DNA of 64,000 nucleotides, taken from NCBI GenBank assembly GCA_030693065.1, contig JAUYBL010000024.1, positions 1 to 64,000 on the forward strand. Reading direction: 5' to 3'. The notes under the pieces were generated by a model, which was not told where the DNA came from, searched no databases, and saw only the letters and a program-made list of their open reading frames with translations. The translations under genes were made by a program, and so were the position numbers. The stretch is from Methylococcaceae bacterium (lineage in GTDB: Bacteria > Pseudomonadota > Gammaproteobacteria > Methylococcales > Methylomonadaceae). Shown piece by piece: positions 22,499 to 40,410 of this stretch (position 1 is its first letter; the number at the start of each line of letters is the position of its first letter).

Positions 22499-22501
22499 AG
22501 C

Positions 22502-22690: not shown

Positions 22691-22700
22691 CTTATGCTGC

Positions 22701-23213: not shown

Positions 23214-23248
23214 CGTGACGGCGTCTAACTTTGCTTAGACTTGATGAG

Positions 23249-23668: not shown

Positions 23669-23681
23669 AGTTCTCTTCAAA

Positions 23682-23800
23682 TGAACCTCTAAAATTCCCC
23701 AATTCATGCTTCGACAAGCCTTGCACGAACGGATAAGTTGCTAATGTAGTGAAGGAAACCGTTCGCACTGAGCTTGTCGAAGTGCAATTTTTAGAGGTTT
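23682..23800. repeat. long imperfect palindrome (CTTCGACAAGC family) between gspF and gspG
   Basis: Arms CTTCGACAAGC (23709-23719) and GCTTGTCGAAG (23772-23782) are exact complements; further inside CACGAACGG pairs with CCGTTCG, and outside AACCTCTAAAATT pairs with AATTTTTAGAGGTT. Together they form a stem-loop of about 120 bases. A degraded relative lies near 9866-9949. It fills the gspF-gspG gap and can act as a processing or partial termination site. Confidence 0.7.
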
Positions 23801-23817
23801 CCTAAAGTGTTTTACAG

Positions 23818-25056
23818 TTAAAAAGCCAAATCATTAACGCTTAAGATGGCCAGCAAAATCGACACGATAATACCAGCAATCATTAACCCTAATGAAATTA
23901 TCAAAGCGGGTTCTAAAAGTGCCAACATCCGGGCAATAGCAACGCGCAATTGCTTGTCGTAGATGGCGGCAACGCGTAACAGCATCTCTTCCAGACGCCC
24001 GGTTTCTTCGCCCATTTTGATCATTTGTAGAGCCATTTTTGGCAACACACCTTTTGCCAACAGCGCATCAGACATAGTCTTGCCTTGCTTGAGCTGGTCT
24101 TCGGCATCCTGAATGGCGTCTGCGAGCACCAAATTGTCGACAGTTTCACGCACAATAATCAACGCGGATAAAATCGATACGCCATTACCCAACAAAGTCC
24201 CCAAGGTACGGCTGATATTGGCGGTTTCTTTGTTGAGGATAATATTACCAACTAACGGCAATCTTAAAAAACGACCATCCCACACTTTCTTCCTTATCGG
24301 GTCGGCCAATTGCCATTTCATATAGCTGGACAATGACACCACGCCGCCAATAAGTAGCCACCAATAGTTTTGTAACCATTCCGCCAACCCCACCACAATC
24401 TGGGTCGATACCGGCAAAGCCTTACCGGCACTGGCAAACATCTCGGAAAATTGCGGCACCACAAAGGTCAGCATAATAAATAACGATGCCAGCGACATGA
24501 CCAACAGAATCATTGGATAAATCAATGCGGTGCTGACCGTGTCTTTTAATTCTTGCGAGCGCTCCAGATATTCTGCAAGTCGACTTAATACCTCACCCAA
24601 ACTACCACCAGCCTCACCGGCACGAATCATATTTAAATAAAACTTGGAAAATATACTGGTACGCGAACGATCGGGCGATTTACGTCTTTCAAGGGAATCA
24701 GCCAAGGCGGTTCCACCTTTGACTTTTTCCAGCACGCGCGCAATAAGTTTGGTTAACGCTTCGTTGTCTTCAGTTAGATCCATCAGTACCAACAACGATT
24801 TATCCAACGGCAAGCCCGATTCCAATAACGTCGCAAGCTCGCTGGTGAATAACAACAAGTCTTTTTGCGCCAAGCCTGAACGTTTTGCACTGAGTTTAAA
24901 TCCGGAGAACAGTTTCGGCTTGGCCGGCACCACCCGAATCGGCATATAACCTTCAGCCTGCAAGGCGGCAATCAGGATTTGCTCATTAATCGCCTCTCTG
25001 ACTCCTTCAATTACGTCACCTTGACCATTAACAGCCTTGTACGAAAACGCGGGCAT
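23818..25056 (-). CDS. gspF: type II secretion inner membrane platform protein GspF
   Basis: A 412-residue polytopic protein with two repeated GspF cytoplasmic domains (about 75-195 and 275-400), each followed by membrane helices: one near 175-200, one near 225-245 and one at the C-terminus (LEPALIISLGLMIAGIIVSILLAI). The N-terminal MPAFSYKAVNGQGDVIEGV and the repeat motif GEAGGSLGEVLSRLAEYLE / GEETGRLEEMLLRVA are diagnostic. It is the rotor-like partner of the GspE ATPase, encoded one base upstream. Confidence 0.95.
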   Translation of the reverse strand: MPAFSYKAVNGQGDVIEGVREAINEQILIAALQAEGYMPIRVVPAKPKLFSGFKLSAKRSGLAQKDLLLFTSELATLLESGLPLDKSLLVLMDLTEDNEALTKLIARVLEKVKGGTALADSLERRKSPDRSRTSIFSKFYLNMIRAGEAGGSLGEVLSRLAEYLERSQELKDTVSTALIYPMILLVMSLASLFIMLTFVVPQFSEMFASAGKALPVSTQIVVGLAEWLQNYWWLLIGGVVSLSSYMKWQLADPIRKKVWDGRFLRLPLVGNIILNKETANISRTLGTLLGNGVSILSALIIVRETVDNLVLADAIQDAEDQLKQGKTMSDALLAKGVLPKMALQMIKMGEETGRLEEMLLRVAAIYDKQLRVAIARMLALLEPALIISLGLMIAGIIVSILLAILSVNDLAF

Positions 25057-25057
25057 A

Positions 25058-26743
25058 TCAGCTTTCCGCCGTCGTCACACGCAACACTTCTTCCAGCGTG
25101 GTGATGCCCTGCGCTACTTTGACCAAACCATTTTCATACATGGTTGACATGCCTTCTGCAATCGCCAGTTTTTGAATAATTCCAGCCTCGGCATGGGTCA
25201 TAATCAATTTGCGGATAGGATCTGTCATCGGTAAAAACTCGATGATCGCCAAACGCCCCCGGTACCCCATATCTGAACAAAGACTGCAGCCCACCGGTTT
25301 ATAAAAAACAATATCGCCTGCAGGAACAAAACGTCGGAACTGTAAGTCTTCAATCAATTCTGCAGGTGGGTGATAGGCTTGTTTACATACAGGACACAAC
25401 TTTCTTACCAACCGTTGCGCCAAAATGCCGTTGACCGTGGAAGTCAGCAAATATTCTTCCAGGCCCATATCCAGTAAGCGCGTAACACCACCCGCCGCGT
25501 CATTAGTATGCAGCGTTGACAATACTAAGTGACCGGTCAGCGCCGATTGCACTGCAATACGCGCGGTTTCCAAATCACGCATTTCGCCGATCATAATCAC
25601 ATCCGGATCTTGCCGGACTATAGAGCGTAAAGCTGCCGCAAATGTTAAGCCGATTTGCGGTTTGGCCTGGATCTGATTGATACCTTCCATCTGGTATTCC
25701 ACAGGATCTTCGACCGTAATAATCTTGCGTTCTGAAGTATTAAGCTGTTTTAACGCCGCGTACATGGTGGTCGATTTACCGCTGCCGGTAGGGCCGGTAA
25801 TTAGAATAATGCCATGCGGTTGTGACAATGCGTCGAGGAACTGATCTAAATGTTTGCCAGCAAAACCCAAGGCGGCAAAATCAAGTACGGTATTGTCCTT
25901 ATCCAGCAGCCGAATCACCACACTTTCCCCGTACATGGTAGGGATGGTGGACACCCGCAAATCCAGCTCTTTACCGAGCATTTGTATCTTGATACGGCCA
26001 TCCTGAGGCAAACGCCGTTCGGCGATGTTGAGCTTGGCCATGATTTTAATACGCGAAATCACCGCAGCTGTGGATTTAACCGACGGCGCATCAATGGCTT
26101 TGAGCACACCATCCACGCGCAGCCTGACTTTAAGACTTTGCTCGAAAGGTTCTATGTGAATATCAGAGGCGCGGGTCTCAATAGCACGTTGCATGATCAG
26201 GTTGACCATTTTGATGATCGGCGCTTCGCTGGCCAAATCTTTTAGATGCTCTAAATCCTCATCAGCAATGTCATCAAGGTCAAGATCATCAACAATTTTG
26301 TCGACTTGCGAGCGGCCCTCGCCGTACTGAATATCCAGCGCAGCATCAATCTCGGATAATAATCCTACTTTGGGAGTGACATGTTTACCGGTCGCCAGTT
26401 GTAAGGCATCAACCACAAACTGGTCTTCCGGATCCATCATAGCCACTTCAATAGCATCGTCATCACTTAAGCCAATGACGTGATATTGCTTGAGAAAACG
26501 CAGCGAAATATTCTCGGGCAGCTGTCTTTCCAGCGGATATTGTTCGGCAGCGATTTTTTCAAACTGGCCCGATTCAACATACGCATCAGCGACATCCAGC
26601 TCAGAACAAACGCCCAACTTCACCAGCAACTGTGGAAGACTTTCAGACCCTGCGGTTTTTTTGACCCGTTCAACTTTTTTTAATTCGTTTTGCGAGAGCT
26701 TGCCGCGCTCATGCAAAACATTCAATAAAGATTCATACGCCAT
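25058..26743 (-). CDS. gspE: type II secretion ATPase GspE
   Basis: A 561-residue hexameric ATPase. N-terminal domain (about 1-150) for binding GspL, then the secretion ATPase core: SDIHIEP near 193, Walker A GPTGSGKST (317-325), Asp box and Walker B around DPDVIMIGEMRD, and the zinc-binding tetracysteine Cys450/453 (CPVC) with Cys486/489 (CSLC). All catalytic elements are present. It is the first gene of the operon, whose order E-F-G-H-I-J-K-L-M-N-D equals that of the Xanthomonas xps cluster. Confidence 0.95.
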   Translation of the reverse strand: MAYESLLNVLHERGKLSQNELKKVERVKKTAGSESLPQLLVKLGVCSELDVADAYVESGQFEKIAAEQYPLERQLPENISLRFLKQYHVIGLSDDDAIEVAMMDPEDQFVVDALQLATGKHVTPKVGLLSEIDAALDIQYGEGRSQVDKIVDDLDLDDIADEDLEHLKDLASEAPIIKMVNLIMQRAIETRASDIHIEPFEQSLKVRLRVDGVLKAIDAPSVKSTAAVISRIKIMAKLNIAERRLPQDGRIKIQMLGKELDLRVSTIPTMYGESVVIRLLDKDNTVLDFAALGFAGKHLDQFLDALSQPHGIILITGPTGSGKSTTMYAALKQLNTSERKIITVEDPVEYQMEGINQIQAKPQIGLTFAAALRSIVRQDPDVIMIGEMRDLETARIAVQSALTGHLVLSTLHTNDAAGGVTRLLDMGLEEYLLTSTVNGILAQRLVRKLCPVCKQAYHPPAELIEDLQFRRFVPAGDIVFYKPVGCSLCSDMGYRGRLAIIEFLPMTDPIRKLIMTHAEAGIIQKLAIAEGMSTMYENGLVKVAQGITTLEEVLRVTTAES

Positions 26744-27051
26744 TTAATTATCCATGTTTACGGGCTTGGTTTGACCTAAAAAAGTATTTCAACACAAAAT
26801 TGGCAAATGAAAAACGGGGGGGGCTAAAACTGTAGGAAAATTCTGAAAATGCCATTATTCAGAGCTGCATTGAATTATGACATTAAAATTATTACATTCT
26901 TATAACTATTCAGTGTGTTAGTAAGCACGAGCAGTAAATAATCACGCAGATGATGTTCAAGTACGATGGCATGTCGTTTAAATCTGACTCACGGCAAATG
27001 CCCTCTTGCTTTGGCGCCATGTCAGTCGTACTGATCTGCAATTCACTTATT
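26744..27051. other. 308-base intergenic region upstream of gspE
   Basis: It must contain the promoter of the type II secretion operon. I see an AT-rich stretch and a G8 run near 26816, but no clear promoter hexamers, hairpin terminator or gene. Confidence 0.4.
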
Positions 27052-27768
27052 TTACGGGTTGATTTGGCCGGTGATGGCAACGAGTTCAACATCATAAATC
27101 AATGTTTCATTCGGACCCAAACGACCATCGGGGGCTCCGACTTCGCCATAAGCCAGATCAGACGGCACAAAAAGCTGCCACTTAGCACCTTCCGTCATTA
27201 ACAACATAGCTTCCTGCCAGCCCTTAATCAAGCCGTCAACTTGAACTTCGGGTATTTTGGAGTCCTTTTCCGTTGACGTCAGCTCTTGACCATCAAGACG
27301 AGTAATTCGATAACGCAGTTGTAACGTATCGCTAAGGTTTGGCTTACGCGCGCTTTTCCCAGACATCAATATTTTGTACTGCAAACCGCTAGCAGTGGTT
27401 TGCACACCGGGCTTTTGCTTGTTGGCATCGAGAAAAGCCTTACCTATTTTCAAGTTTTCTGCGGCGACTTTCTCGTTATGCAACACCTGCTGTACAAACA
27501 CCCAATCCTGCCCTTTTTGCAGTTCAGCTGGATTGAGTCGCAGCAGCTTTTTATTCAAAACATCATTTAGGCCCTGTACAAACAGGGCCTGGTCTAGCGG
27601 TATTTCGCTTTGCTGCAGGTTTTTCATATACTGAACACCTTGTGCATAACTCGACTTTTGCAGGTCACTTTGCAGTAATAGTTTATTTTCAACGGGTTTT
27701 ATCGACGTTGTTGAACACCCCGCTAGAAACAGTAACAACATAACCACCTTAGAAATTTTATCAGCCAT
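27052..27768 (-). CDS. FKBP-type peptidyl-prolyl isomerase lipoprotein (copy A)
   Basis: A 238-residue FkpA/Mip-like protein. The lipobox LAGC puts the lipidated Cys at about residue 18, so it is anchored in a membrane facing the periplasm. Residues 40-120 form the helical FKBP-N dimerisation part (SYAQGVQYMKNLQQ), and 125-232 the FKBP domain (GLQYKILMSGKSARKPNLSDTLQLRYRI..., IKGWQEAMLLM, PSDLAYGEVGAPDGRLGPNETLIYDVELV). The GP-N-TLIYDVEL end is well kept. It directly follows DUF3570 copy A in the direction of transcription, so it probably helps fold that barrel. Paralogue of 30860-31579. Confidence 0.83.
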   Translation of the reverse strand: MADKISKVVMLLLFLAGCSTTSIKPVENKLLLQSDLQKSSYAQGVQYMKNLQQSEIPLDQALFVQGLNDVLNKKLLRLNPAELQKGQDWVFVQQVLHNEKVAAENLKIGKAFLDANKQKPGVQTTASGLQYKILMSGKSARKPNLSDTLQLRYRITRLDGQELTSTEKDSKIPEVQVDGLIKGWQEAMLLMTEGAKWQLFVPSDLAYGEVGAPDGRLGPNETLIYDVELVAITGQINP

Positions 27769-27819
27769 AGTTTCTCCTCAAAGTTAAAAAAATTAGCAAG
27801 CTGCACCGCAGTCTATTTG

Positions 27820-30603
27820 TTAAAACCCAATGCTCCAGGTCGCCGACAATGCCCCATCTCGGTCTAGTTGGTAGCCGTTATAGTCGGTATGTAGTGGTTG
27901 TAACCACTCGAATTTGAGAGTATTACCGGCAAATGCACCATTGGGTACGGTGACGTTAATGCCCAAGCCCAAATCAACAAACTGGCCGCCGTAGTTGGCT
28001 GGGGTATCAAAGGGGCCAATATGAGTGGGAGTAAAAGGGTTACCAAATTCATCAAAAAGCGGGCGATATTTCCCATGTATGGCTCCTTGCTGGGTGTACG
28101 CGCTCCGCACCGTAGTCGTCAACCAGTTAGTCCATTGGTAGCCGCCCCAAACGCTGCCCTGAAAAATATCACCAAAAGCAAAATTGGCATCATTTCGGCT
28201 TTCCAGCCTTTTGGTCCCAGTTACTTGAGCTCCCCAGGAAAGCTGCTCTATCTCGCCGGTATACGTTAGACTAGGCTTGAAGTCCCAGGTGCCGCTACCC
28301 AGTTGCATACCGTAGTGAATTAATGTGCCGGGGATGGGATTCGTCACGGTTTTTCTTAACGTTACTTCTACATCGCCGGTAGGCGCGGTGCCGCCCAAGC
28401 TGAGATTAATGTGGTGTCCAGACTGTTCGAGGAGCTTAAATAAAGCATATACGCCAGTATCACCGATACCACCTGTCTGGTGGTCATGCGCAGCGCCACC
28501 GTGGTTATGTCCGCCTCTGGGAGTATTATCTAAAGGCGTCATGTCCATTTCCATATCCACCCACTGCGGCATCAGCATCAAGGTCAACCAGTCCGTCGGA
28601 GCAACCATAAGATCCAGCATGTGCATGTTCATCGCCATAAAATTAGGCGCAACCGCGCATTCTTGGTCGCCACAGCCGTTGAAACGAACGGTGTCCTGAC
28701 TGACGGCTTGCGAGCCCAGCAGCATATTACCTGCCTGTTCGCTGCGCATAAAACGGTATCCCACCATGACATCACCGAATTTCTCCAGTGCGTGGTCAAA
28801 CATAACACCCGCTGGCGCATTGCTGGCATGGTGATGATTTGAGTGTCCAGTATGGCCACCGGGCGCCCCTATCGACTCTAAATTGATTTTTAGCGCGGCA
28901 TTGGCGACCCAGTAATCGTAATTGGCAAAATCCTGTTCACCTCCGCCGCCTATTTTTAGGCTACCCTGGTGGGTGTAATACTCAAAGCCTGTTTCCAAAC
29001 TAACACCTTTGGCAAATTGCTTGGCGACCGTGACACCGCCGCTTAATGCACCAAAGCCGGACAAACGTTGGTCGCTTGAATAATATTTAGGCACCTTAGT
29101 GGTATCAATATGGTTTGTTACGGGATTACCGTCTCCATCAAGTATCGCATCACCATTACTGTCAAGGGCGGGCGTATCATAGCCAGTCGTAAGGATAGTC
29201 AGAAACGGTGTATAAAAATCCGCGCCGGACTGCGAGTAATAACGGACGCGTGGCGTAACTGTCCAGCCAGAACCTATAGGCTGCACCCAATCCGCCTCAA
29301 AGGTATGAGCGTTAACCCCCCAATCATCATGAGCAAAACGGTAGTCGAAGTGCAAAGCCGCATCCAACGGAGCTATGTATTGGTTATAGCCCAAGTTCCA
29401 GTTGAACTGATTTCGCTCATCCGGGCGGATTTCAATGCGAGCTTGTTGACCAATAAATAAGAGCGGTTGACTTAAGTCTTGTTCTGGTAACGCTTCAAAA
29501 TTAAAAGCGTATACCAACTTATAGGGGTTGGCCATGAAGCCGGTACTTCGGATATAGCCCATATTCAATTCCAGCACAGCATCTTTATTAAGCACCTGCG
29601 TCAATCCAAGCTGAGTACCCCAATCCTGACGATTACCCTTTAGCACGGCGCCTGAGCGACGACCCAAACTATCGTAAGTGCTTTCGATTTGGCCTGCCGA
29701 ACCCTCAATACCTTTAAAACGAACACTTCCACTTTGCTCATTAAATAATTCTTCATAACTTGTTGTGCTTATAAACTGCAAGCTATCAGCATCGAGGGTA
29801 GCAAAAGTATCGCTGTTGGTATAACTGAGGCCTAGATTTACTGTCGTTTGTTTTTGATTGAAATCCATGCGCCCGCCCAAATTGACAAAGCGGGATTCAT
29901 AGTCATTTTCAATGGAAATGCCGCCACCTACATCTACCGCCGCCTCATCCCACTCGTAGCCTAGCTTAAAATCCCCCTGCTTACGCGTCTCCGGTGAGGC
30001 TAAAGCTAAAACATGAGTGAGCTGATTATTTATAGAACCGGGAGACAATTCCCCGGTTGAAGGATCAGTTTTTACTTCTAGGATATTTGAACTTTTATCC
30101 AGATAAAAACTCGTAACCTCCCCTGCGATAGGTGATGCGCCAGTGACTGCGGTTGACGTGCTGTTGTACCGAGCCCGATTGCCCCTGACAATAGCTGGCG
30201 CAGTGCCAACTGGCGTAGCGCCTGACCAGGTGTCTTGAGTGTAATTGAACGAGAACTTGATACGGTCAGTAAGTGAAATTCTAGAGCTGCCATGCAAACT
30301 ATCTACCTCAATAGGGTTTAAATTATTGGGTAATTTTGAAATACTTTCAGTCTGTGTAGCAAGATTACTAACAAAACCAGAAATATCCCGCTTACCTTCC
30401 TGGTAATGGCTGTACTGGAAATCAACACTGTCTTCTTCGGCGGCGTGAGCTGGGGATTGCAGTAAGCCAGGAAGCACCAAGGCGGCGGCTGTCAGTGCTT
30501 GCAGAGGTGATGGGACTGTTCTGACAGCCCCATCTCCATTTGACATGATATGGGTACCGGAATGACGGTTTGATTTAAGATAGAATTTTTTAATAACAGC
30601 CAC
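27820..30603 (-). CDS. outer membrane DUF3570 fusion protein with second barrel domain (copy A)
   Basis: About 927 residues. After a long basic N-terminus comes a signal peptide core (LTAAALVLPGLLQSPAHA), then a DUF3570 region (about 55-580: VDFQYSHYQEGKRD, VDSLHGSSRISLTDRIKFSFNYTQDTWSGATP), then a His-rich linker (HTGHSNHHH, about 584-592) and a second domain (about 597-927) like Met/His-rich outer membrane transporter proteins (APAGVMFDHALEKFGDVMVGYRFM, MAMNMHMLDLMVAPTDWLTLM). It ends in Phe as outer membrane barrels do. I start at a GTG at 30603 because AAGGAGG lies five bases before it; the frame is open to 30726 only because it crosses the DUF4266 gene. Function unknown; metal handling is inferred. 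Confidence 0.75.
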   Translation of the reverse strand: MAVIKKFYLKSNRHSGTHIMSNGDGAVRTVPSPLQALTAAALVLPGLLQSPAHAAEEDSVDFQYSHYQEGKRDISGFVSNLATQTESISKLPNNLNPIEVDSLHGSSRISLTDRIKFSFNYTQDTWSGATPVGTAPAIVRGNRARYNSTSTAVTGASPIAGEVTSFYLDKSSNILEVKTDPSTGELSPGSINNQLTHVLALASPETRKQGDFKLGYEWDEAAVDVGGGISIENDYESRFVNLGGRMDFNQKQTTVNLGLSYTNSDTFATLDADSLQFISTTSYEELFNEQSGSVRFKGIEGSAGQIESTYDSLGRRSGAVLKGNRQDWGTQLGLTQVLNKDAVLELNMGYIRSTGFMANPYKLVYAFNFEALPEQDLSQPLLFIGQQARIEIRPDERNQFNWNLGYNQYIAPLDAALHFDYRFAHDDWGVNAHTFEADWVQPIGSGWTVTPRVRYYSQSGADFYTPFLTILTTGYDTPALDSNGDAILDGDGNPVTNHIDTTKVPKYYSSDQRLSGFGALSGGVTVAKQFAKGVSLETGFEYYTHQGSLKIGGGGEQDFANYDYWVANAALKINLESIGAPGGHTGHSNHHHASNAPAGVMFDHALEKFGDVMVGYRFMRSEQAGNMLLGSQAVSQDTVRFNGCGDQECAVAPNFMAMNMHMLDLMVAPTDWLTLMLMPQWVDMEMDMTPLDNTPRGGHNHGGAAHDHQTGGIGDTGVYALFKLLEQSGHHINLSLGGTAPTGDVEVTLRKTVTNPIPGTLIHYGMQLGSGTWDFKPSLTYTGEIEQLSWGAQVTGTKRLESRNDANFAFGDIFQGSVWGGYQWTNWLTTTVRSAYTQQGAIHGKYRPLFDEFGNPFTPTHIGPFDTPANYGGQFVDLGLGINVTVPNGAFAGNTLKFEWLQPLHTDYNGYQLDRDGALSATWSIGF

Positions 30604-30814
30604 AACCGCCTCCTTGCGCAGCATTGCTACCGGCAGCCGCCTCGCGGCTGCCGTAATTATGAGCCCGTAACGAACTTTGTAACGGGTACGGATCTCACGC
30701 CATCTGAGGTTTAGCAAGGTTGCCACGTTGCCAAGGTTGTACCGGGGCGCAGGCGGTTAAGCCGAGTGTTAACAACAGTAATTGCAATAAAAAAATAGTC
30801 TTGATTAAGTTCAT
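30590..30814 (-). pseudogene. DUF4266 small lipoprotein gene with one in-frame TGA
   Basis: From the ATG at 30814 the frame gives a lipoprotein signal (LLLTLGLTACAP, lipobox LTAC, Cys22) and the DUF4266 hallmark VQPWQRGNLAKPQMA, then TGA (30695-30697) exactly where the family has Trp (MAWDP). Beyond the TGA the same frame continues with family-like sequence DPYPLQSSLRAHNYGSREAA and ends in the typical Gly/Cys-rich tail GGGCGCY followed by TAA at 30590. So 74 codons match the family along the whole length with a single TGG to TGA change. Either a recent nonsense mutation, a sequencing error or suppressed stop. DUF4266 genes usually sit next to DUF3570 genes, as here. Confidence 0.8.
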
Positions 30815-30859
30815 GTCGAGCTCATTAAAAAGGCGAGTGGGTAATAACCAGCTAACCGG

Positions 30860-31579
30860 CTATTTTTTTGGCGGGAGAATGCTGTCCAGATGCGTTTCAA
30901 TGATCAATGTTTCATTCGGTAAAATTCTCTTTTCACCTAAGCCGTTCTCGCCAAATGCCAATTCTCCTGGAATATAGATTCGCCATCTGCTTTCCAGCGG
31001 CATCAGCAGTAATGCTTCCTGCCAACCTTTACTGAAAACTTTTTGCAAGGGAATTTCGTACATTTTTCGCCCCTCTTTGGGCATAGTATCGACTTTAACA
31101 GTGCCGTCTATACCGGCGATTTTGTAAAGAATGCCAACGCTATCCTCCAAGGTGGGCTTTTGCGCCGTTTTACCTTCTTTCAACACTTCGTACTGCACGC
31201 CGCTCGGCAGCGTTATCACCCCCTTACGGGTTTTGTTCTGTTCAAGAAAAGCTTTACCGGCGGCAAGATTGGCGGTTTTTACCTCTTCATAACTTGCAGC
31301 AGCCAGGGCTTGCCAAGCTGTCTGGTTAGTTTGCACATCGACTGCGCTGCCATTCAGGACATCCTGTAAACCGCGTTCATATGCGGGTTGGTCAAGATTA
31401 TATTTACCCTCACGTAAGGTTTTGATATGTAGCAAAGCGAGCTCATAACTCGATTGCGAGATTGCCGCATCTTTAACAATAGAACTATCCACAGTAGTTT
31501 TATCAGCACCGGTTTCGGTCGTTGCACAACCGGAAAACGCCAGGGTTACCAGGATGAGTAAAAGCGGTTTTAAGATCAT
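30860..31579 (-). CDS. FKBP-type peptidyl-prolyl isomerase lipoprotein (copy B)
   Basis: A 239-residue paralogue of the protein at 27052-27768. Lipobox FSGC (Cys18), helical N-terminal part with SYELALLHIKTLREGKYNL, and an FKBP domain from about 125 (GVQYEVLKEGKTAQKPTLEDSVGILYKI to PGELAFGENGLGEKRILPNETLIIETHL). The active-site region is more diverged than copy A (no clear DGxxFDSS-like strand), so isomerase activity may be weak and a chaperone role more likely. It has a good ribosome binding site (AAGGAG seven bases before ATG) and follows DUF3570 copy B. Confidence 0.8.
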   Translation of the reverse strand: MILKPLLLILVTLAFSGCATTETGADKTTVDSSIVKDAAISQSSYELALLHIKTLREGKYNLDQPAYERGLQDVLNGSAVDVQTNQTAWQALAAASYEEVKTANLAAGKAFLEQNKTRKGVITLPSGVQYEVLKEGKTAQKPTLEDSVGILYKIAGIDGTVKVDTMPKEGRKMYEIPLQKVFSKGWQEALLLMPLESRWRIYIPGELAFGENGLGEKRILPNETLIIETHLDSILPPKK

Positions 31580-31623
31580 AAAAACTCCTTGTTGTTAGTT
31601 GTTAAAGCAAATAAAAATTTCAG

Positions 31624-34347
31624 TTAAAACCCATAGCTCCAGGTAAACGCCAGGGAACCATCGCGGTCGAGCTGGTAGCCGTTGACGTTGGTGTACACCG
31701 GCTGCAGCCATTCCAGGCTCAAGCGGTTGCCTGCCAAAGAACCGTTAGGCACAGTAGCGCTCAGGCCAAAACCGGCATCCACGTATTGACCGCCGTAACT
31801 GCTCGGCTCATCCATCGGCCCGGATACCGTGTTAGGTACTGAAATGTTTCTGGCCTCTTCACCTTGCTCAACGTCATCAGGATCGAATACCCCGTTACAG
31901 CCGGACAGCGGGTCGGGATCGGTACAATTGCCGTCTCCATCAATATCGTAATAAACAGGAATAGCAATCGGAAAAATTTTACTGATCCTATGGGTATTAA
32001 ACTGGTGCCTGACCGCTCCCTGCACGGTGTACACACCGCGCACCGAGGCTGACAGCCAGTTGAACAGGTTGTAACTGCCCCAGGCGGTGGTTTGGAATAT
32101 ATCGCCCAGCGCATAACCGGAGTCATTGCGGTTTTGCAGGCGTTTGGTGCCGCTCAGTTGTGCGCCCCAGGACCAATCGTCCTGCTGACCGCTATAGGTC
32201 AGGCTGGGTTTAAAATCCCAGGTACCGCTGCCAAGCTGCATGCCGTAATGCATAAATTCCTGTTCTGATGATTGAGTTGCCTCGGGGTATTTTTTGCTCA
32301 CGCTGCCCGTCGGCGCACTGACGCCGATAGCGGTATGCAGATGATGCACCGGGTTGTTAAACAGCTTCACCATGGCATACATGCCGGTATCGCCGATGCC
32401 GCCGCTGCTATGCCCCTGGCTGGCTACCGAATGATGGTTATGACTACCCGTATCTATCGGGTCAGGCGCATTGTGTAGCCCGCGCAGGCTCATGTTCATA
32501 TCCATCAACTGCGGCATCACCATCAAGGTCAACCAATCGGTCGGTGCCACCATCAGCTCCAGCATGTGCATGTTGGTGTTCATTTCTGTTGCGGTAAAGC
32601 GGCAGGCATCGGTGCTCGGGCAGCCGTTATCGATAATGGCCTGATCGCCCACTGCCTGGGTACCGTGCAAGATATCGCCTTTTTCCAGGCCGTATTGGTA
32701 GCGGTAGCCGACCATGACATCACCGGCATTATCAAGCATGTGATCGAACATCACCCCGGCCGGGGCGTGACTGCCGTTGTGGTGCCCGCTATGCGGCGCG
32801 CTGTCGGCACTGCCGCCTTTAAGGCTTAAGGCATCCAGGCTGACATTGAGCGTGGCGTTGACGGTAACGTAATCGAAGTCGGCATAACTGCCTTCACCGC
32901 GGCTGCCCAGTTGCAACGAGCCGGCATGTTGATAGTACTCGCCGCTGACCGACAGGTTTAACCCTTTGGCAAATTGTTTGCTGATGGTCAGGCCGCCGCT
33001 CAAAGTGCCGTAACCTGACAGCCGGTAATCGCTGGAGAAGTTCTTGATCGGCAATTGGCTGAAGTCCAGTTGGGAACCTCTCGGTTTGGTATCATCCACA
33101 ACAAAAGCATCCGGACCCAGCAAAAAAACCGAATTGTAAAAATCGGCGGCTGTCTGGCTGTAATAACGGATGTTGGGGGTCAAGGTCCAACCCCAGCCGA
33201 CCGGTTGATCCCAACTGCCGGCAAAGGTATGGGCATCGATGCCCCAGTCGTCATGAAAAAAGCTGTAATCCACATGCAGCGCCGCATCCAAGGGCTCGAT
33301 ATACTGCACTCCACCCACATTCCAACTGAACTGATTGCGACTGTCGGGGCGTTGCTCCCAGACATCTGTTGCAGTTGCATTTCTCAACTCTATGGGATTG
33401 TCCGGATCCGCAGGATTGTTGTAAGGTACAAAATCGTTACCTACAGAATACAAATACACCGCTTTATAGGGGTTTTCTAAAAACCCGGTGTTACGGGTGT
33501 AATTCATGTTGCCATGCACAAGAGTACTTTTACTCAGGACTTGACTAAATCCCAAATTCATCGCCCAGTCTTCGCGATCGGCCTTTAAAGGATCGTTGGC
33601 GCTGGTGGCACTGGTGGAATGGGCGCGCGGCGTACGATCTATCGTATTGAAATACCCCAATCCAATAGTACTTAGATCACTGCTGGTATAGCTCAAGCCC
33701 AGGTTCACGCTGGTCAGTTTCTGGTTAAAATCCCAGCGGCCATTAGCATTGACAAAGCGCGAGTGATAATCCGGCTCTTCCGACACGCCGCCGCCGATAC
33801 CCAGTGCCATCTCATCGCCTTCGTAGCTCAACTTAAAATCACCCTGCTTACGCGTTTCCGGCGATGCGATAGCAAAGGCGTGGACAGTACGGTTATCAAC
33901 TTCAAGCGTCAAAAAATTAACAAAATTTCCTTGCCGATCAATACCAAAATTCCAATCCCTTGCCGGTGAGGCATTGGAAATTGAGTCAAACCCTAAGGAT
34001 GCTATCGGACCTGTCGCGAATGGCGTGGCCCCACCCCAGGTATCCTGCACGTAATTAAAGGCGAGTTTGACCCGGTCGGTCAGGCTAATCTTGCCGTTAC
34101 CGCTAAAGCTGTCCACAGTAATGGGTTTTAAATTTGAATGAGGGGTTGTGGGGTCTTTTGCACTTGGCAAAAAGGCACGAGCTCGCATGCCTTCTTCGTA
34201 GTATTGGTAGCCGAAACTGACTTGGTCGTCTTCCTGGGCATGGCTTGTTGACGGCATTAAGCCGGGCAATGCCAATGCGGCGGCGGTGAAGGCCGCGAGT
34301 GGCGATGGTTTAGTTACTTGGTGATGTGTGGTTTTGCGTTTATTCAA
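31624..34347 (-). CDS. outer membrane DUF3570 fusion protein with second barrel domain (copy B)
   Basis: A 907-residue paralogue of copy A with the same architecture: signal peptide ending PSTSHA, DUF3570 domain (about 40-555; VDSFSGNGKISLTDRVKLAFNYVQDTWGGATP), linker with SAPHSGHHNGSHAP, second barrel-like domain (about 565-907; EMNTNMHMLELMVAPTDWLTLMVMP, then HNHHSVASQGHSSGGIGDTG) and terminal WSYGF. An Asp-rich insert DIDGDGNCTDPDPLSGC near 830 looks like a Ca-binding type loop and is absent from copy A. No DUF4266 gene precedes it; two small secreted proteins do. Confidence 0.77.
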   Translation of the reverse strand: MNKRKTTHHQVTKPSPLAAFTAAALALPGLMPSTSHAQEDDQVSFGYQYYEEGMRARAFLPSAKDPTTPHSNLKPITVDSFSGNGKISLTDRVKLAFNYVQDTWGGATPFATGPIASLGFDSISNASPARDWNFGIDRQGNFVNFLTLEVDNRTVHAFAIASPETRKQGDFKLSYEGDEMALGIGGGVSEEPDYHSRFVNANGRWDFNQKLTSVNLGLSYTSSDLSTIGLGYFNTIDRTPRAHSTSATSANDPLKADREDWAMNLGFSQVLSKSTLVHGNMNYTRNTGFLENPYKAVYLYSVGNDFVPYNNPADPDNPIELRNATATDVWEQRPDSRNQFSWNVGGVQYIEPLDAALHVDYSFFHDDWGIDAHTFAGSWDQPVGWGWTLTPNIRYYSQTAADFYNSVFLLGPDAFVVDDTKPRGSQLDFSQLPIKNFSSDYRLSGYGTLSGGLTISKQFAKGLNLSVSGEYYQHAGSLQLGSRGEGSYADFDYVTVNATLNVSLDALSLKGGSADSAPHSGHHNGSHAPAGVMFDHMLDNAGDVMVGYRYQYGLEKGDILHGTQAVGDQAIIDNGCPSTDACRFTATEMNTNMHMLELMVAPTDWLTLMVMPQLMDMNMSLRGLHNAPDPIDTGSHNHHSVASQGHSSGGIGDTGMYAMVKLFNNPVHHLHTAIGVSAPTGSVSKKYPEATQSSEQEFMHYGMQLGSGTWDFKPSLTYSGQQDDWSWGAQLSGTKRLQNRNDSGYALGDIFQTTAWGSYNLFNWLSASVRGVYTVQGAVRHQFNTHRISKIFPIAIPVYYDIDGDGNCTDPDPLSGCNGVFDPDDVEQGEEARNISVPNTVSGPMDEPSSYGGQYVDAGFGLSATVPNGSLAGNRLSLEWLQPVYTNVNGYQLDRDGSLAFTWSYGF

Positions 34348-34659
34348 AAATTATTCCTTTAATGAGTTAAGCGATTTGCAACCACATACGCGCGGAAAAT
34401 CACGCAAGCGTAATTTTCTCAATTAACCGGCAGAGAGCATTAGGCCTGTGGGTTGCCCCTTAACTTGGTGTTTTTTTATATAGCCTGCGAGCGCTCGCTT
34501 AATACCCTTGGACTTTTACTTTTAACCCAATGGAATTGATAAAAATTCTGACCACCGGATAGATGATGAAGCGGACTGACTTTATCAAAAGGTACTTCCT
34601 GCCCATTTAACCGAGAAAGCCCCCATAACGAGCATGGAGGCCTCTCAAACAACCGCAGG
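34348..34659. other. 312-base intergenic region with leader-like remnant
   Basis: No gene. On the minus strand 34505-34560 resembles the leader of the secreted-protein gene at 34660-35244 (TCAATTCCATTGGGTTAA then CCAAGGGTATTAA, against TCAATACCGTTGGCTTAA then CCAAGGATATCAA). A 12-base palindrome GCGAGCGCTCGC lies at 34487-34498. At 34617-34648 GCCTCCAT and ATGGGGGC can pair, a possible terminator for the preceding gene. Confidence 0.45.
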
Positions 34660-35244
34660 TTACCGGTTAATTGCTAAGTCGATATCTGGGCTCAAGGTGG
34701 AATTACCTGTTATCTCAGGCGCTGCAAAACCTGAATGGACTTCAGTTGTAACTGTTTCTATACCAACATTGTCCTGGCAATGAAAAATAAGCCCGTAAGT
34801 CTTGGCACCGGTACCTCTTTTATTAACCAGGATGTTGTATTCACCATTGCCTGCACCCACACCTCCTGGAGTAAGCGCAGTCTGCCCGGATGCGGTGCTT
34901 GTAGTACATGCAGGCGCCGGGCCGGTGGCTGCCCCTGTACTGGTATCAGTTACCTGTACGGATTGTGTGAAACCTTCTCTACCAAGTTGTACCGCTACCG
35001 ATTCACCCACTACTGTAGCCGATTGCAGATTTATTCGAGTGAATAACTTGGTGGTGGGATTAAGGCTGGGGGCCTCAGGAGAGCCATCACCATTCGAGCA
35101 CATAATCCTGTACACATCGGCCGCATCTTGCGCCGCTGCCAGGGTGAGGTTGTTAGGACAATGTGCCGATGCTATCCCCATATACCCTGCACCCAATACC
35201 AGCAACGTAGAGGACAAGATTGATTTTAATATTGATCTGTTCAT
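34660..35244 (-). CDS. small secreted Cys-containing protein of unknown function
   Basis: A 194-residue exported protein: signal peptide ending GIASA, mature part starting HCPNNLTLAAAQDAADVYRIMC. Four Cys residues (near 29, 49, 113 and 155) could form two disulfides. The middle is rich in Thr, Ala and Gly; GEYNILVNKRGTGAKTYGLIFHCQD is shared with the neighbouring paralogue (YNVLVNSTSTTAKSYTLYFRCEN), and looks like a beta sandwich. The SD AAGGA lies before the ATG next to a small hairpin. No family recognised. It is upstream of and co-oriented with DUF3570 copy B. Confidence 0.7.
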   Translation of the reverse strand: MNRSILKSILSSTLLVLGAGYMGIASAHCPNNLTLAAAQDAADVYRIMCSNGDGSPEAPSLNPTTKLFTRINLQSATVVGESVAVQLGREGFTQSVQVTDTSTGAATGPAPACTTSTASGQTALTPGGVGAGNGEYNILVNKRGTGAKTYGLIFHCQDNVGIETVTTEVHSGFAAPEITGNSTLSPDIDLAINR

Positions 35245-35380
35245 ATTTGATATCCTTGGGCTATTTAAGCCAACGGTATTGATAAGATTCTGATGACTAC
35301 GCTTGGCAGTGCATCAGGTTAGCTGTGACATTAGTAATGTCGCCAGCTGTTTTTCAGTTTCCTCAGCTAAACAACGGTGC

Positions 35381-35882
35381 TTAGTTATTTATTTCAGGCG
35401 TTGTACCTGTGCTTGGGAGATGCGTGGTCGTAGTCAAAACGCCCGATGCATTTTCACATCGAAAATATAATGTGTAACTCTTGGCGGTGGTGCTCGTTGA
35501 GTTTACAAGAACGTTATATTGCACGGCTGGAAAGCCTGCCACAGCAGGAACGGGAGCCACAGGGGTATAGCTGGTTCCACCGGAACCGGCAGTTGGGCTG
35601 GCTGGATCAGAACAAGAAGCAGAAGGCACTGCTATTGCAGAAGGCGAAGTGCCCTCTCTTGCAATTTGGGCTTCTACGCCTGCCGTTCCTGTAACACAAA
35701 GCCGAAGCTTTACGGTTCCGGCACCGCAGTTGAACCGGTATAAGTCAGCGGCAACCGGCTGTGGACTAACTGTAGCGCCCAACGACTGCGCAATTGAAAA
35801 TTGCCGAAGCCGTTCCCGTATATCCTGTGAACGCAAGCAGCGCTAGAGGGATCAGGGCTGTTTTGATCGATATTTTATTCAT
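35381..35882 (-). pseudogene. frameshifted paralogue of the small secreted protein
   Basis: From the ATG at 35882 (SD AAGGAA) the frame encodes a good signal peptide (MNKISIKTALIPLALLAFTG to GTASA) but then runs into a stop. The mature part lies in another frame (LGATVSPQPVAADLYRFNCG to the C-terminus TPEINN at 35381). The switch point is a TTTT run (complement of 35797-35800): with one T fewer, GCA ATT TCA ATT GCG CAG joins signal and mature parts, which then align with the neighbour at 34660-35244. Either a one-base insertion mutation or an assembly error in a homopolymer. The product would be about 165 residues. Confidence 0.72.
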
Positions 35883-36146
35883 GATAAGATTTCCTTGGGG
35901 CGTAGCCCCAATTTGTTTTATAAAATGCTTAGCACTGCGTTTTCTGCAGTGAATAGGCGTGATAGCAGGTGAAATACTTCGTTTCAGCTGGTTATTTCAC
36001 TTGCCAGTTTTGCCAACCGCTTCTTGCAGGAAGCGGTTGGCGAAGCGGAATCCTTACCGCTTGTCCGGTACCCATGACCGCCTGCCTGTTGGCTAAAGAC
36101 GGGCGGTCATGTTGTTTTTAAACTCCCTTACTTTATGAAAGTAATG
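35883..36146. promoter_or_regulatory. structured leader upstream of the secreted-protein genes
   Basis: Three hairpins lie in 264 bases: TTGGGGC-GTA-GCCCCAA at 35895-35911, touching the ribosome binding site of the frameshifted gene; GCCAACCGCTTC/GAAGCGGTTGGC at 36012-36041; and CATGACCGCC/GGCGGTCATG at 36073-36111, which may terminate transcription from the HEAT gene. The first is echoed, less perfectly, before the paralogue at 35244. Confidence 0.5.
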
Positions 36147-37004
36147 TCATTGCTTCTGTCGTGCGTTAAGCTCGGCAAGCTTGGCTGAAGCCAGTTCGCG
36201 TATTCCTTTGTCATTATCTTTACTAGCCTGTTGCAATAAATTGACATCATCATTGATAGTGCTGACTGCGTTAAAGCGGACATTTACATCCTTGTCGTTA
36301 ATCGCCTGCGTTAGGAAAGCCTCAACATCATTACCGCCGCGCTGGACGATGGCGGTAACCGCCTGCGCCCTGATGCCGGGATCTTTGTCTATCATGGCTG
36401 ACTGTATAGCTTTATCCACGCTTGGATCATCTTTAAGCCCAGCTAACCCCAGGTTATAGATTGCTTGGGCGCGTTCTCCAGGATCTTTAGATTTGGCCTG
36501 CTCTAAAAGCAAATCGGATTGCTCGCGCATGGATTGGTCAACCTGCGCTTGTTCTGCCGCCGTAGGTTTTTTTTCAACTACCGCCTGAGCCAGCGGCGCT
36601 GTTGGCTCAACCGTCACCGCCTGACAACTGCCGACGCTGGAGCCTAACAACCAAAATTCTGCAGGCTTATCTTTTTGAGCTTTGTGGGCCACCAGCCCAA
36701 CTTGTTTAGCGAGCAGGCAATCCATGATTTGGCTGACGTTTTCGCCTATGCAGGTAGCTGTCACCGGAGCATCAGGCAACACGGAGTAATGGATGCTTAC
36801 ACCGGTTTTGTCAGCGATTGCTTTCAGGATTTTCCCTAACGGCGCATGTCTGGCTTCCAGGCGAATGGCGTCGGGAGCTTGCTGGGACAGGGTAAGCTGA
36901 ATACTGGCAGGTGAGCTATTGCTTACATCTTGCGCAGCTGCAAAACCACCAGTCGCATGCAGCACGAGGCAGGCGAATAAAGCTAAAGTTCTAGGCGTAT
37001 TCAT
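36147..37004 (-). CDS. exported STN-domain and HEAT-repeat protein
   Basis: About 285 residues from the ATG at 37004 (MNTPRTLALFACLVLHATGGFAA is a signal peptide; the frame is open to 37100 without a signal-like start). Residues 35-110 resemble the secretin/TonB short N-terminal (STN) domain: LEARHAPLGKILKAIADKTGVSIHYSVLPDAPVTATCIGENVSQIMDCLL. After a Pro/Ala linker come helical repeats (about 160-280) of HEAT type (DPGERAQAIYNLG, DPGIRAQAVTAI, DVNVRFNAVSTI). It likely binds proteins in the periplasm. First gene of the DUF3570 locus in the direction of transcription; an adaptor for surface assembly is a guess. Confidence 0.72.
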   Translation of the reverse strand: MNTPRTLALFACLVLHATGGFAAAQDVSNSSPASIQLTLSQQAPDAIRLEARHAPLGKILKAIADKTGVSIHYSVLPDAPVTATCIGENVSQIMDCLLAKQVGLVAHKAQKDKPAEFWLLGSSVGSCQAVTVEPTAPLAQAVVEKKPTAAEQAQVDQSMREQSDLLLEQAKSKDPGERAQAIYNLGLAGLKDDPSVDKAIQSAMIDKDPGIRAQAVTAIVQRGGNDVEAFLTQAINDKDVNVRFNAVSTINDDVNLLQQASKDNDKGIRELASAKLAELNARQKQ

Positions 37005-37608
37005 CAGGAATCTAAACTTATATTGCGCCGGAATCAGCCTGGCCGGGCCAGCATGGACAATGTTTTCCAGCGTTTGGATACAGCTTCTCGTGATTGGCAA
37101 CCGATTGATAGATTGCTGTGTCTTGATTCCAGGCCATGCTTTGTCCTAATTTTTATTTTTGTTCAATCCAAGAATGATGCTCAAGGCATTACACAAGGTT
37201 GGGATCTACTTGATTTCCAAAACGGCGACCAAGAGATAAGGCCGCTTGGAAAAGGTATGAACACAGAGTTCGGGGCGGGATGCTAAATCATAAAAATATA
37301 AAGACAATGCGACAAAATGCCGCGCGACGTATTGACGCAGGGGAAAACAATTAAACTAGGTTATTTGACATCATTTGCAAAAATTTTTACGTCATATGCC
37401 GTACTTTTGGAAAATTCGCTGTTTTTTTGTTTGAAAAAACATTTTCACAATAGGCAATCGTTGCGGGTCAAAACTATTTAACGAACTTAAAAATTTTCCG
37501 GTTGTGATCTGCTGCGGCGCCATTGAGTTAAGCGAAGCCGCACCTCTTAGTTGTTCACCTGATGGTGCGTAAAAGCACCCTACGATTATTGGGAAGTGGC
37601 TTCTAACC
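37005..37608. other. 600-base intergenic region
   Basis: No firm gene. A possible 39-codon frame lies at 37018-37137 on the minus strand (MAWNQDTAIYQSVANHEKLY..., AGGA seven bases upstream), ending 13 bases before the HEAT gene; it matches nothing I know. Around 37555-37590 the wording TAGGGTGCTTTTACGCACCATC is a common short dispersed repeat. The AT-rich part near 37350-37400 has TTGACA-like sequence (TTGACATCATTTGC) on the plus strand. Confidence 0.4.
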
Positions 37609-38493
37609 CTATCTTTTGCCACTATTCCGATCAAAAAACTCATGACTGACTAACGCGAGTAATATCAACGCGCTGCCGATTAGTACTTTCACCGTTAAAG
37701 GCTCGTGGTTAACAAAGTGCCCAAGCGCTAATGCCATAACGGGTGAGATTAAGGTAATGAGTGCAACCCGTGTCGCACTGAGGTAAATCAGTAAATAGTA
37801 ATACAGTGCAAAACCGATGGTAGTGGCGATCACGCCCAAATAAACGATGGATGCCCAACTGGTAATCGGTAAATCTGTCGGCCAGTGGCCATCAAAGCTT
37901 ATCCAGGTTAGCAAATACAACGGTAGCGACAGCAATAAGCCGCCGGTAACTTGGGTTAACGCAGGCAACTTGGCATCAATGCGTTTTACCCAGACCGCGC
38001 TGAATGATTGCAAGAACGTTGAGATTAACACCCCGCAAATACCCATCACCGCCTCGCGGCCCAATTGCAAAGCAGAGCCAAACATCACAGCCAAGCCGAC
38101 AATACCCAGGATGTAAGAAAGCACTTTGCCTTTGGTCAGGCTTCGCTCAGCTAACCACAAGGCTACCAACAACGCCGTCATTAAGGGTGTAAGTCCGAAA
38201 ATAACTGAAATCCAACCGGAAGGAATAAATTGTGCGGCCCAATACACTACCAGCATAGAGCCGTATATTTGCAGGGCTACCGCACAATAGGTTTGTAGCG
38301 CTTTTGAATGCCAGAGCAAACGCTGTTGACTCAAGCCTAACGTCATGAGTGTGCAAGCGGCGCCGATGGTCATACGTGCCGTGACGCCAAACAAAAAACC
38401 CGGTCCTTCAGCGCTCCATTTGATGGCTAGCGGGGTTGTCGACCACAGTAAAACAATAAATACGTACGCTAACACCACACCTATTTGCAGCAT
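37609..38493 (-). CDS. EamA/DMT-family transporter
   Basis: A 294-residue inner membrane protein with ten predicted membrane helices arranged as two EamA repeats of five; the first begins VVLAYVFIVLLWSTTPLAIKW, the second near IGICGVLISTFLQSFSAVWVKR. Typical landmarks are FIPSGWISVIFGLTPLMTALL and ATRVALITLISPVMALALG. Members export metabolites or amino acids; the substrate is unknown. It is separated by 11 bases from the next gene upstream on the same strand, so it may belong to that operon. Confidence 0.88.
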   Translation of the reverse strand: MLQIGVVLAYVFIVLLWSTTPLAIKWSAEGPGFLFGVTARMTIGAACTLMTLGLSQQRLLWHSKALQTYCAVALQIYGSMLVVYWAAQFIPSGWISVIFGLTPLMTALLVALWLAERSLTKGKVLSYILGIVGLAVMFGSALQLGREAVMGICGVLISTFLQSFSAVWVKRIDAKLPALTQVTGGLLLSLPLYLLTWISFDGHWPTDLPITSWASIVYLGVIATTIGFALYYYLLIYLSATRVALITLISPVMALALGHFVNHEPLTVKVLIGSALILLALVSHEFFDRNSGKR

Positions 38494-38504
38494 TGTTATC
38501 CCTT

Positions 38505-39146
38505 TTAATGCATTTCTATGAGCAATTTTCTGATTTTATCCAGGAGTTGCTGTTGCTGCTCTTCGTTCAATTTGGCAAAGTCTTGCTGAAAAGCTTCCAG
38601 GCTATAGGGCTTTTCAACTATCGAATTTGCTGACGCGGCAATCCCGCAGTCGGTAAGCACTTGAGTTAATGACTTGGCCGCATCATCCAGCGGGATTGAA
38701 GCTAACAATACTTTACGAATTAAGGTATTTACACGCAGAAAAATAGCTTGTCCGCTGAGCATATCGGCAACGATGGCTTGAGCCTGCTCGGTGTTAAAGC
38801 CTCGACGCTTGGAATCTTTGTAAGCAGTCATTGGCAATTTAACGGGGGGCTTTTGGTCTATCTGATATTCAACATCAAACCGGCTACCTTGCGAAGTAAT
38901 CAGGCTGGTCGACTCAACAGTGACCTGTAAGGCATTATCTTTGCACATGACTTCTAAACGCATGTTGTCATAAAGATCACGACGCGGTAGTGGCGATATA
39001 ACAACACTATAATTGCGGTTGGTCAGACGATCTTTCTCTTGCACATAGCTCCAATCATTAATGGCGAACGCGTTGGTCGGCAACAAGAAAGCCACCGACA
39101 CCCAGATCAGGCCTACCTTATAAAATGTTTGCATAATCTTGCTCAA
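38505..39146 (-). CDS. periplasmic protein of unknown function (VasI-like in part)
   Basis: A 213-residue exported protein with a signal peptide (about 9-28, ending NAFA). Residues 30-140 show a beta pattern with LEVMCKDNALQVTVES, YQIDQKPPVKLPM and FLRVNTL, which weakly resembles the VasI/TagO or IalB fold; the identity is uncertain. The last 45 residues form a Gln-rich helix (FQQDFAKLNEEQQQQLLDKIRKLLIEMH). Its 5' end overlaps the DUF1704 gene by 29 bases, so the two are translationally linked. No type VI secretion genes are in the window. Confidence 0.6.
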   Translation of the reverse strand: MSKIMQTFYKVGLIWVSVAFLLPTNAFAINDWSYVQEKDRLTNRNYSVVISPLPRRDLYDNMRLEVMCKDNALQVTVESTSLITSQGSRFDVEYQIDQKPPVKLPMTAYKDSKRRGFNTEQAQAIVADMLSGQAIFLRVNTLIRKVLLASIPLDDAAKSLTQVLTDCGIAASANSIVEKPYSLEAFQQDFAKLNEEQQQQLLDKIRKLLIEMH

Positions 39147-40410
39147 GTTGCCGAAAGTTCATTGATGACATAAAGCGGCTAAAACTTAACCATGCCGATA
39201 GCCCCATCAAATCTTTAAATTGCGGTGGCAAAAAATGCGGCGGCACGACGGTTCCTTCTTCTACCAAATCGACGAGCACTTTCATATCCTCGATCATAGT
39301 TTTTCCGCAGAACAACAACGGAATACGGTCGGGTTTACCTTTACTAACCGCCAAACGCATAAAGTTGTAAGTGAGGACAAAGCCTTTGATGTAGGTCAGG
39401 TCTTTGGTAAACGCCATACCGTCAGGACTGCTGCCTCGAAACACGCGACTGCTGAGGGTGTAGCTTTCTTCTCTATCCAAGCCTTTGTCTAAGAAGAAAG
39501 TGAATATCTCCATAAAGTCGGCGCCTTCTTCGGCCAAAGTAATGGCACGCACCCGATTAATCAGACGCATCAAGCGATTGGGTGTCGAGCTAAAGGTCAA
39601 AATTTCCATCAACACCGCCAAACCTTCTTGGGTAACAGTTGCTGAAGGCGGCCCTTTGCCCAAAAAAGTACAATAAGGCTGCGCTAATCCATTCAAAGTG
39701 GTGCCCAAATGCACCCAAATTTCATGCACTTCCAGCACGCGCAAATCGCGCATATTAAATAAAGCGTCGGCACGCAATTTAACGTAATCGGTACCGGCTG
39801 CCGCATCGGCGACAATACCGTCGCTGATCATGGCCCGCAGACCATCACCGGGAAACATGGCTTCTATTTTTTCATTAAGTATCGCTACAGCATCTTTAGC
39901 ATTAATTGTTTTAGGCTCTTCAACCAGAAAATCCAGTTTTAACAATTGCGACAAGGTGGCTTCCATCATGCTGCCCAAATCGGCAATGGTCGGATCGCCA
40001 ACATGAAAGACATCTTGTGACGAGCCATACAGCTCTTGAGAAATATTGGTAAACGTTGAAGTGCCTCGAGCTTCCAGCATGCGCACGACATCCTGGTATT
40101 CCCGGCAAATCCTACGCATGATGACGCTAAGCGGATTAAGCTGGCCGAGTTTACGGACCAGGTCGCGTTCTATTTGATAGAACTCGTGTTTCTTTTCGAC
40201 AGGATCAAAGCCCAATGGCCGATTTAAATAATACTCGGGGGTAACTTCAGGAAGTTTTTTACAATTTCCGTTAAAAAATGCCTGTTTAACGCCATCATCC
40301 CATTTGATGGCATCAAGGATTCTTATCGGCTGTTGGGCTTTAAGAATACGATCCGACAGGGTTTTAACCTCAGTTAAGTAGGTAGAAGGTTTAACCGTTT
40401 TTTTACGCAT
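39118..40410 (-). CDS. DUF1704 (QEGLA-motif, MATCAP-like) putative metallopeptidase
   Basis: A 430-residue DUF1704 protein (annotated in many genomes as flavohemoglobin expression-modulating QEGLA motif protein). The name motif QEGLA is at 261-265 and a zinc motif HEIWVH (H-E-x-x-x-H) at 229-234. The same HExxxH plus EGLA pair is the active site of the human MATCAP/TMCP tubulin carboxypeptidases, so a zinc peptidase activity is expected; the bacterial substrate is not known to me. No signal peptide, so cytoplasmic. It overlaps the gene of a periplasmic protein and is followed by an EamA transporter, with a separate ion transporter gene upstream. Confidence 0.83.
   Translation of the reverse strand: MRKKTVKPSTYLTEVKTLSDRILKAQQPIRILDAIKWDDGVKQAFFNGNCKKLPEVTPEYYLNRPLGFDPVEKKHEFYQIERDLVRKLGQLNPLSVIMRRICREYQDVVRMLEARGTSTFTNISQELYGSSQDVFHVGDPTIADLGSMMEATLSQLLKLDFLVEEPKTINAKDAVAILNEKIEAMFPGDGLRAMISDGIVADAAAGTDYVKLRADALFNMRDLRVLEVHEIWVHLGTTLNGLAQPYCTFLGKGPPSATVTQEGLAVLMEILTFSSTPNRLMRLINRVRAITLAEEGADFMEIFTFFLDKGLDREESYTLSSRVFRGSSPDGMAFTKDLTYIKGFVLTYNFMRLAVSKGKPDRIPLLFCGKTMIEDMKVLVDLVEEGTVVPPHFLPPQFKDLMGLSAWLSFSRFMSSMNFRQLEQDYANIL

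Follow-up and report, generated by a model that had tools for sequence, protein, structure and literature searches.

The locus at positions 27052–37004 of the window (the whole 64,000-nucleotide stretch analysed) is almost certainly a paralogue of the DUF3570-DUF4266-thioredoxin-ApbE family. Because no thioredoxin-like protein (Trx) or ApbE is encoded in its cluster, it was regarded as a derivative and not as a canonical flavinylation system. The reading favoured here, with moderate confidence, is that the locus derives from an outer-membrane redox system of the flavin/thiol type, bears FKBPs and has a possible link to a metal. It is an insertion, possibly in decay, and a sign of a broader system among methane and ammonia oxidisers that is conserved but has for the most part not been described.

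Eight co-oriented genes were confirmed on the minus strand, in the order listed by the first-pass annotation: a secreted HEAT-repeat protein, two small secreted proteins (SSP1 and SSP2), DUF3570 fusion B, FKBP-B, a DUF4266 lipoprotein, fusion A and FKBP-A. Comparative genome analysis showed that these genes lie in an accessory island of 10.84 kb (26773–37614), which is a clean insertion between gspE and an EamA-family gene. Alignment of congener G201 covered window positions 24760–26772 and resumed at 37615–38780, with 21 bp between the two segments; congener G195 showed the same break. The gap between gspE and the EamA-family gene was 53 and 47 bp in two congeners, compared with 10.84 kb in the window. 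The GC content was 0.486 in the inserted stretch and 0.448 in the rest of the window. Horizontal acquisition of the island is probable and forms part of the best explanation of the locus. Scanning of the locus for promoters and terminators gave no excess over shuffles, and PADLOC returned nothing there beyond a weak HEAT match.

Three other features of the window were recorded. A type II secretion operon (gspD, gspE, gspF and pseudopilins; 15754–26743) lies directly downstream, the island being just upstream of gspE. At 7519–9815, a multicopper-oxidase-like protein adjoins a Met/His-rich cupredoxin-like membrane protein, another likely copper pair. The protein encoded at 39118–40410 belongs to the MATCAP family (PF08014, E 3e-132), named for a eukaryotic tubulin carboxypeptidase.

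The function of the locus had been called undescribed; however, DUF3570 is a demonstrated substrate of ApbE, flavinylated at two [S/T]GA[S/T] motifs, and a published electron-transfer cluster combines it with ApbE, a thioredoxin-like protein, DUF4266 and, frequently, DsbD (PMC8238504; Meheust et al. 2021). The family was surveyed in 201 genomes of the order, 132 of which have DUF3570; about 80 loci from the order and 76 from named genomes were scored for eight gene families using profiles seeded from the window's genome. Among 122 distinct long-form loci, DUF4266 was present in 107, an SSP in 104, Trx in 88, ApbE in 73 and a HEAT protein in 69. No SSP or HEAT protein was found in the 12 short-form loci; the loci of short DUF3570 genes (about 400–500 aa) contained Trx, DUF4266 and a DsbD-like gene. 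These gene families are found jointly at more than 100 loci, so their grouping is not due to chance, and the view of a conserved multi-gene envelope-type locus was upheld. The neighbours expected of long DUF3570 genes were likewise recovered, the SSPs at the frequency given above and the FKBP lipoproteins in several genera. In 47 loci (e.g., L069 9409–10962), the gene that immediately follows the cluster encodes a membrane protein of about 517 aa that resembles an MFS/spermidine-synthase-like fusion.

Methane and ammonia oxidisers depend on copper monooxygenases. Named carriers of the long form are methanotrophs and Nitrosomonas, the methanotrophs including Methylobacter, Methylomonas, Methylovulum, Methyloglobulus, Methylomicrobium and Methylocucumis. 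Among 274 genomes sampled across the class, G375 was the only one outside the order with the long form. Two kinds of the published DUF3570 system can be told apart: the short kind comes with DsbD, and the long kind has two barrels and secreted partners of its own. In this survey the long kind was almost confined to methane and ammonia oxidisers.

The genome of the window carries two further loci of the family. Contig C29 has a complete HEAT-SSP-Trx-DUF4266-fusion-ApbE cluster (L005 4662–10988, G000), and contig C38 has an intermediate HEAT-SSP-DUF4266-fusion-FKBP cluster; a second ApbE gene is at C38:63498. With Trx encoded on C29 and ApbE on both contigs, the proposal of a self-contained system at the window locus was abandoned. 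The ApbE of C29 or C38 could flavinylate the window fusions in trans. The complete C29 locus is a better experimental target than the window copy.

The HEAT-repeat protein (36147–37004, minus strand) matched HEAT_2 (E 3.5e-15), and HEAT was found by Pfam in all 19 of its relatives. The HEAT half of its earlier STN/HEAT label therefore stood, but STN was found in none of the 19 relatives in Pfam and gave no match in a PDB profile search, leaving this name for the N-terminal domain unsupported.

SSP2 (34660–35244, minus strand) is intact and carries a mature N-terminal His28, the conserved Cys49 and Cys156, and His155 directly before the second of these. The first residue after the AxA pattern, from which the cleavage site was inferred, was His in 46 of 58 aligned SSPs. 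All 46 also carried His directly before the second conserved Cys, compared with 3 of the other 12. In a wider set, both His residues were present in 108 proteins, neither in 22 and one in 8 (Fisher p 9e-18, a value that ignores relatedness). When relatedness was controlled with a tree built leaving out the two His columns, four to five of six independent pairs agreed and almost none opposed (p 0.06–0.125 in most draws), and the pairing of the two residues is only suggestive after this control.

The SSP family had no sequence match to any Pfam family. The SSP2 model was a beta-sandwich of moderate quality (pLDDT 72), with which Foldseek gave nothing under E 0.001; the best sensible shapes, above that value, were pre-peptidase-C-terminal and GOLD-like sandwiches. 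A His exposed at the N-terminus by signal-peptide cleavage is an accepted indication of a metal site (PMC12537917). By this analogy the SSPs would be candidates for holding copper in a histidine-brace-like manner, and the possible metal ligands proposed earlier for the locus are plausible. A second secreted family, encoded upstream in about 66 relatives (L068 4965–5906, L181 5563–6504 and about 64 more), has an invariant mature His (start AHT...) and an invariant HxC motif, mostly HGC. It has further conserved Cys residues and no Pfam name, and is a histidine-brace candidate; no member turned up at the window locus, and the family had no PDB match among proteins of known structure.

Two of the eight genes, SSP1 and DUF4266, are broken as sequenced. 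In SSP1 (35381–35882, minus strand) the signal peptide (ATG at 35882, frame 35766–35882) and the mature part (frame 35381–35836) are in different frames, and in the mature part the second Cys is not preceded by His; of the two small secreted paralogues annotated, only SSP2 was thus found intact. The DUF4266 lipoprotein gene (30590–30814, minus strand) was present in the cluster as annotated, but an in-frame TGA at 30695–30697 precedes its C-terminal CxC. The remainder past the TGA, including the CxC, is intact (DPYPLQSS...GGGCGCY). Almost all relatives have Leu, not Cys, at this site; recoding, such as selenocysteine, was therefore rejected, and a nonsense change or a sequence error is the simpler account. 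Either lesion, in SSP1 or in DUF4266, could be a sequencing or assembly error.

Similar damage, a split SSP and an altered CxC, was found at L085 of another many-copy genome. Methyloglobulus-type genomes (L090 and L091 on contig C18 of G100; L092 and L093 of G094) were observed to have at least eight long DUF3570 genes, several of them arranged in tandem and separated by FKBP and DUF4266 genes, and some of the SSP and DUF4266 copies in genomes of this type appear damaged (L085).

These lesions bear on the possibility that the island was acquired, has been shedding genes and has no present function. This account would fit a clean insertion absent from two congeners, the SSP1 frameshift, the DUF4266 nonsense codon, the missing Trx and ApbE and the comparable damage at L085. 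However, no stop or frameshift interrupts the four largest genes, which span 7 kb and have conserved residues, lipoboxes and, in fusion A, the flavin motifs, and the two lesions may be artefacts; a functionless island was considered rather unlikely. Within the favoured reading, an FKBP-bearing derivative of a redox system, the window copy may not itself work as a redox unit, because Trx and ApbE are missing from it and two of its genes, DUF4266 and SSP1, are broken.

Fusion A (27820–30546, minus strand, 908 aa) and fusion B (31624–34347, minus strand, 907 aa) matched DUF3570 with E values of 1e-122 and 3e-108, respectively, and each has a second, C-terminal domain. Fusion A has both [S/T]GA[S/T] motifs, as SGAT and TGAS. 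The counterparts in fusion B, GGAT and SNAS, are off the published consensus, and GGAT retains the acceptor Thr of the first motif. The loss of Ser in GGAT was rejected as a sign of lost flavinylation, since GGAT also occurs in fusions adjoining ApbE and is not diagnostic.

The AlphaFold2 model of fusion A, built from an 86-row alignment, had a pLDDT of 86.7 and a pTM of 0.83. About 18 long strands were counted from the DSSP line in residues 40–555 and 12 strands in residues 593–907, and residues 560–585, the linker between the two parts, are His-rich. Each large protein is accordingly predicted, on the basis of modelling, to form two beta-barrels in a single chain, an unusual arrangement for outer-membrane barrels, and would be located in the outer membrane. 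The C-terminal part of the model matched the COG4313 channel 4rl8 (TM 0.71 to target) and FapF. Whole-chain matches to TonB-dependent receptors and MtrB had an rmsd above 20 and were discarded. Standalone relatives of the C-barrel are annotated as transporter or alpha-amylase. On plasmid pMSC49c of Methylosinus sp. C49, a 738-aa barrel protein (L204 4576–6792) has the same C-barrel at its end; its gene sits between a PepSY membrane gene and feoB, which hints at iron reduction and uptake.

The likeness of the C-barrel to the COG4313 channel family, the Met- and His-rich stretches around it and the lack of redox partners at the locus would also suit passive porins for metal or solute uptake, in which two-barrel channels are fed metal by the His-starting proteins and the flavin system is ancestral and unused. 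Against this, fusion A keeps flavinylation-type motifs and ApbE is present in trans, and passive uptake was judged unlikely.

FKBP-A (27052–27768, minus strand) and FKBP-B (30860–31579, minus strand) both match FKBP_N and FKBP_C and have a lipobox, and their similarity to Mip and FkpA spans both domains. The active sites were checked at residues equivalent to Y26, F36, D37, W59 and Y82 of FKBP12, with the housekeeping FKBP of the same genome (contig C28) as control. The catalytic pair F36/D37 is replaced by L/T in FKBP-A and K/V in FKBP-B. It was kept in none of the 15 locus FKBPs, each of the two residues being found singly in just one, whereas the housekeeping protein kept all nine pocket residues. 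With the pair lost in the locus FKBPs and kept in the control, an isomerase role of the former is doubtful from their sequences. They are most likely non-catalytic holding or scaffold partners of the barrels. The FKBP lipoprotein BamJ, which belongs to the barrel-assembly machine (BAM) of Bacteroidota (PMC12578637), may serve as a precedent for a barrel-linked role; the window FKBPs scored 75 bits against the BamJ model, below the cut-off of 100.

Of the 122 distinct long loci, 13 had an FKBP neighbour. They came from the window's genus, Methyloglobulus, Methylovulum, Methylomonas koyamae and other genera, and in several genera the FKBP gene lies directly downstream of the long fusion. Trx was near and on the same strand for 1 of 13 FKBP-linked fusions and 51 of 68 others (p 7e-6). 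Per distinct locus, it was present in 4/13 with FKBP and 84/109 without (p 0.001); among loci with complete flanks, the values were 4/7 and 53/65 (p 0.15). ApbE was also less frequent at FKBP-bearing long loci. The earlier suggestion that FKBPs take the place of Trx and ApbE held as a tendency across loci, but strict replacement of Trx was rejected, the difference being non-significant in the complete-flank set. A self-contained outer-membrane assembly system, with nothing redox about it and the FKBPs as dedicated chaperones or isomerases folding the large barrels, would fit the FKBP genes directly behind long fusions and the sub-threshold likeness to BamJ, but it was considered quite improbable, since so few long-fusion loci have an FKBP that the barrels evidently need none, the catalytic pair is lost, and the commonest partners at these loci are redox proteins.

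The two fusion-FKBP modules had been described as duplicated. The phylogenetic tree of 134 fusions placed fusion A in a well supported clade of 22, which contained 10 of the 15 FKBP-linked fusions, and fusion B in a different clade, among fusions of Trx/ApbE-type loci. FKBP-A and FKBP-B shared 34% identity; FKBP-A was closest to the FKBP of the C38 locus (68% identical), and FKBP-B to a Methyloglobulus FKBP adjoining a fusion (L123, 61% identical). Recent tandem duplication was therefore ruled out, and the modules, which are old and of unlike subfamilies, came from different lineages.

In the redox derivative favoured here, the fusions would place a DUF3570 barrel with covalent-FMN motifs, a His-rich linker and a C-terminal 12-stranded COG4313-type channel in the outer membrane, and an ApbE from another locus of the genome would attach FMN to them. 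In complete relatives, the flavin would receive electrons from the thioredoxin-like protein and from DUF4266, the CxC lipoprotein, and a metal, with copper favoured, would be bound by the small secreted proteins that start with His. The task of such an outer-membrane or periplasmic module would be the reduction, capture or delivery of metal at the outer membrane. The FKBP-type loci would be derived copies that have shed some redox partners, with the FKBPs holding or scaffolding the barrels without catalysis.

A redox function is fairly probable, a metal link falls a little short of an even chance, and copper in particular, proposed by analogy, is tentative. The identity of the metal is read from analogy and phyletic pattern: copper is favoured because of the N-terminal His and the restriction to bacteria with copper monooxygenases, and iron is also plausible because VIT1 transporter genes sometimes occur in DUF3570 clusters (PMC8238504) and feoB adjoins the related Methylosinus barrel. 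A broader proposal, which we consider unlikely, is a copper-acquisition machine common to methanotrophs and ammonia oxidisers, in which His-starting secreted proteins would capture copper, the thioredoxin/CxC/flavin chain would reduce it at the double-barrelled protein, and the metal would enter for methane or ammonia monooxygenase, the FKBP-type loci being specialised offshoots. The route of copper through the outer membrane of these bacteria has long been a question, for which the SSP and double-barrel genes offer concrete candidates that can be deleted.

Compared with known systems, the SSPs resemble the histidine-brace copper proteins (LPMO, CopC and YcnI) and signal-strapping families such as DUF4198 (PMC12537917) in being small, secreted and, by prediction, beta-rich, with a mature N-terminal His in most members that seems to be paired with a second His; they are set apart by the absence of a Pfam match, and their metal binding is putative. 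The COG4313 channels (PDB 4rl8; Pfam Phenol_MetA_deg) resemble the C-terminal 12-stranded barrel in fold, but the barrel of the locus is fused behind DUF3570 through the His-rich linker. The locus FKBPs are lipoproteins with FKBP_N and FKBP_C domains like Mip, FkpA and BamJ, and differ from them by the lost catalytic-pocket residues and by missing the BamJ cut-off. The published ApbE-DUF3570-thioredoxin-DUF4266 (DsbD-type) system has a DUF3570 protein of about 420 aa, whereas the long form has 850–1060 aa and is fused to a second barrel; long-form loci add SSP and HEAT proteins and are usually without DsbD. The window copy differs from that system by its FKBPs and by its lack of Trx and ApbE. 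It has in common with it the DUF3570 domain, with both flavin motifs in fusion A, and a DUF4266 gene, whose CxC here lies beyond the TGA; the sister locus on C29 shares Trx and ApbE as well.
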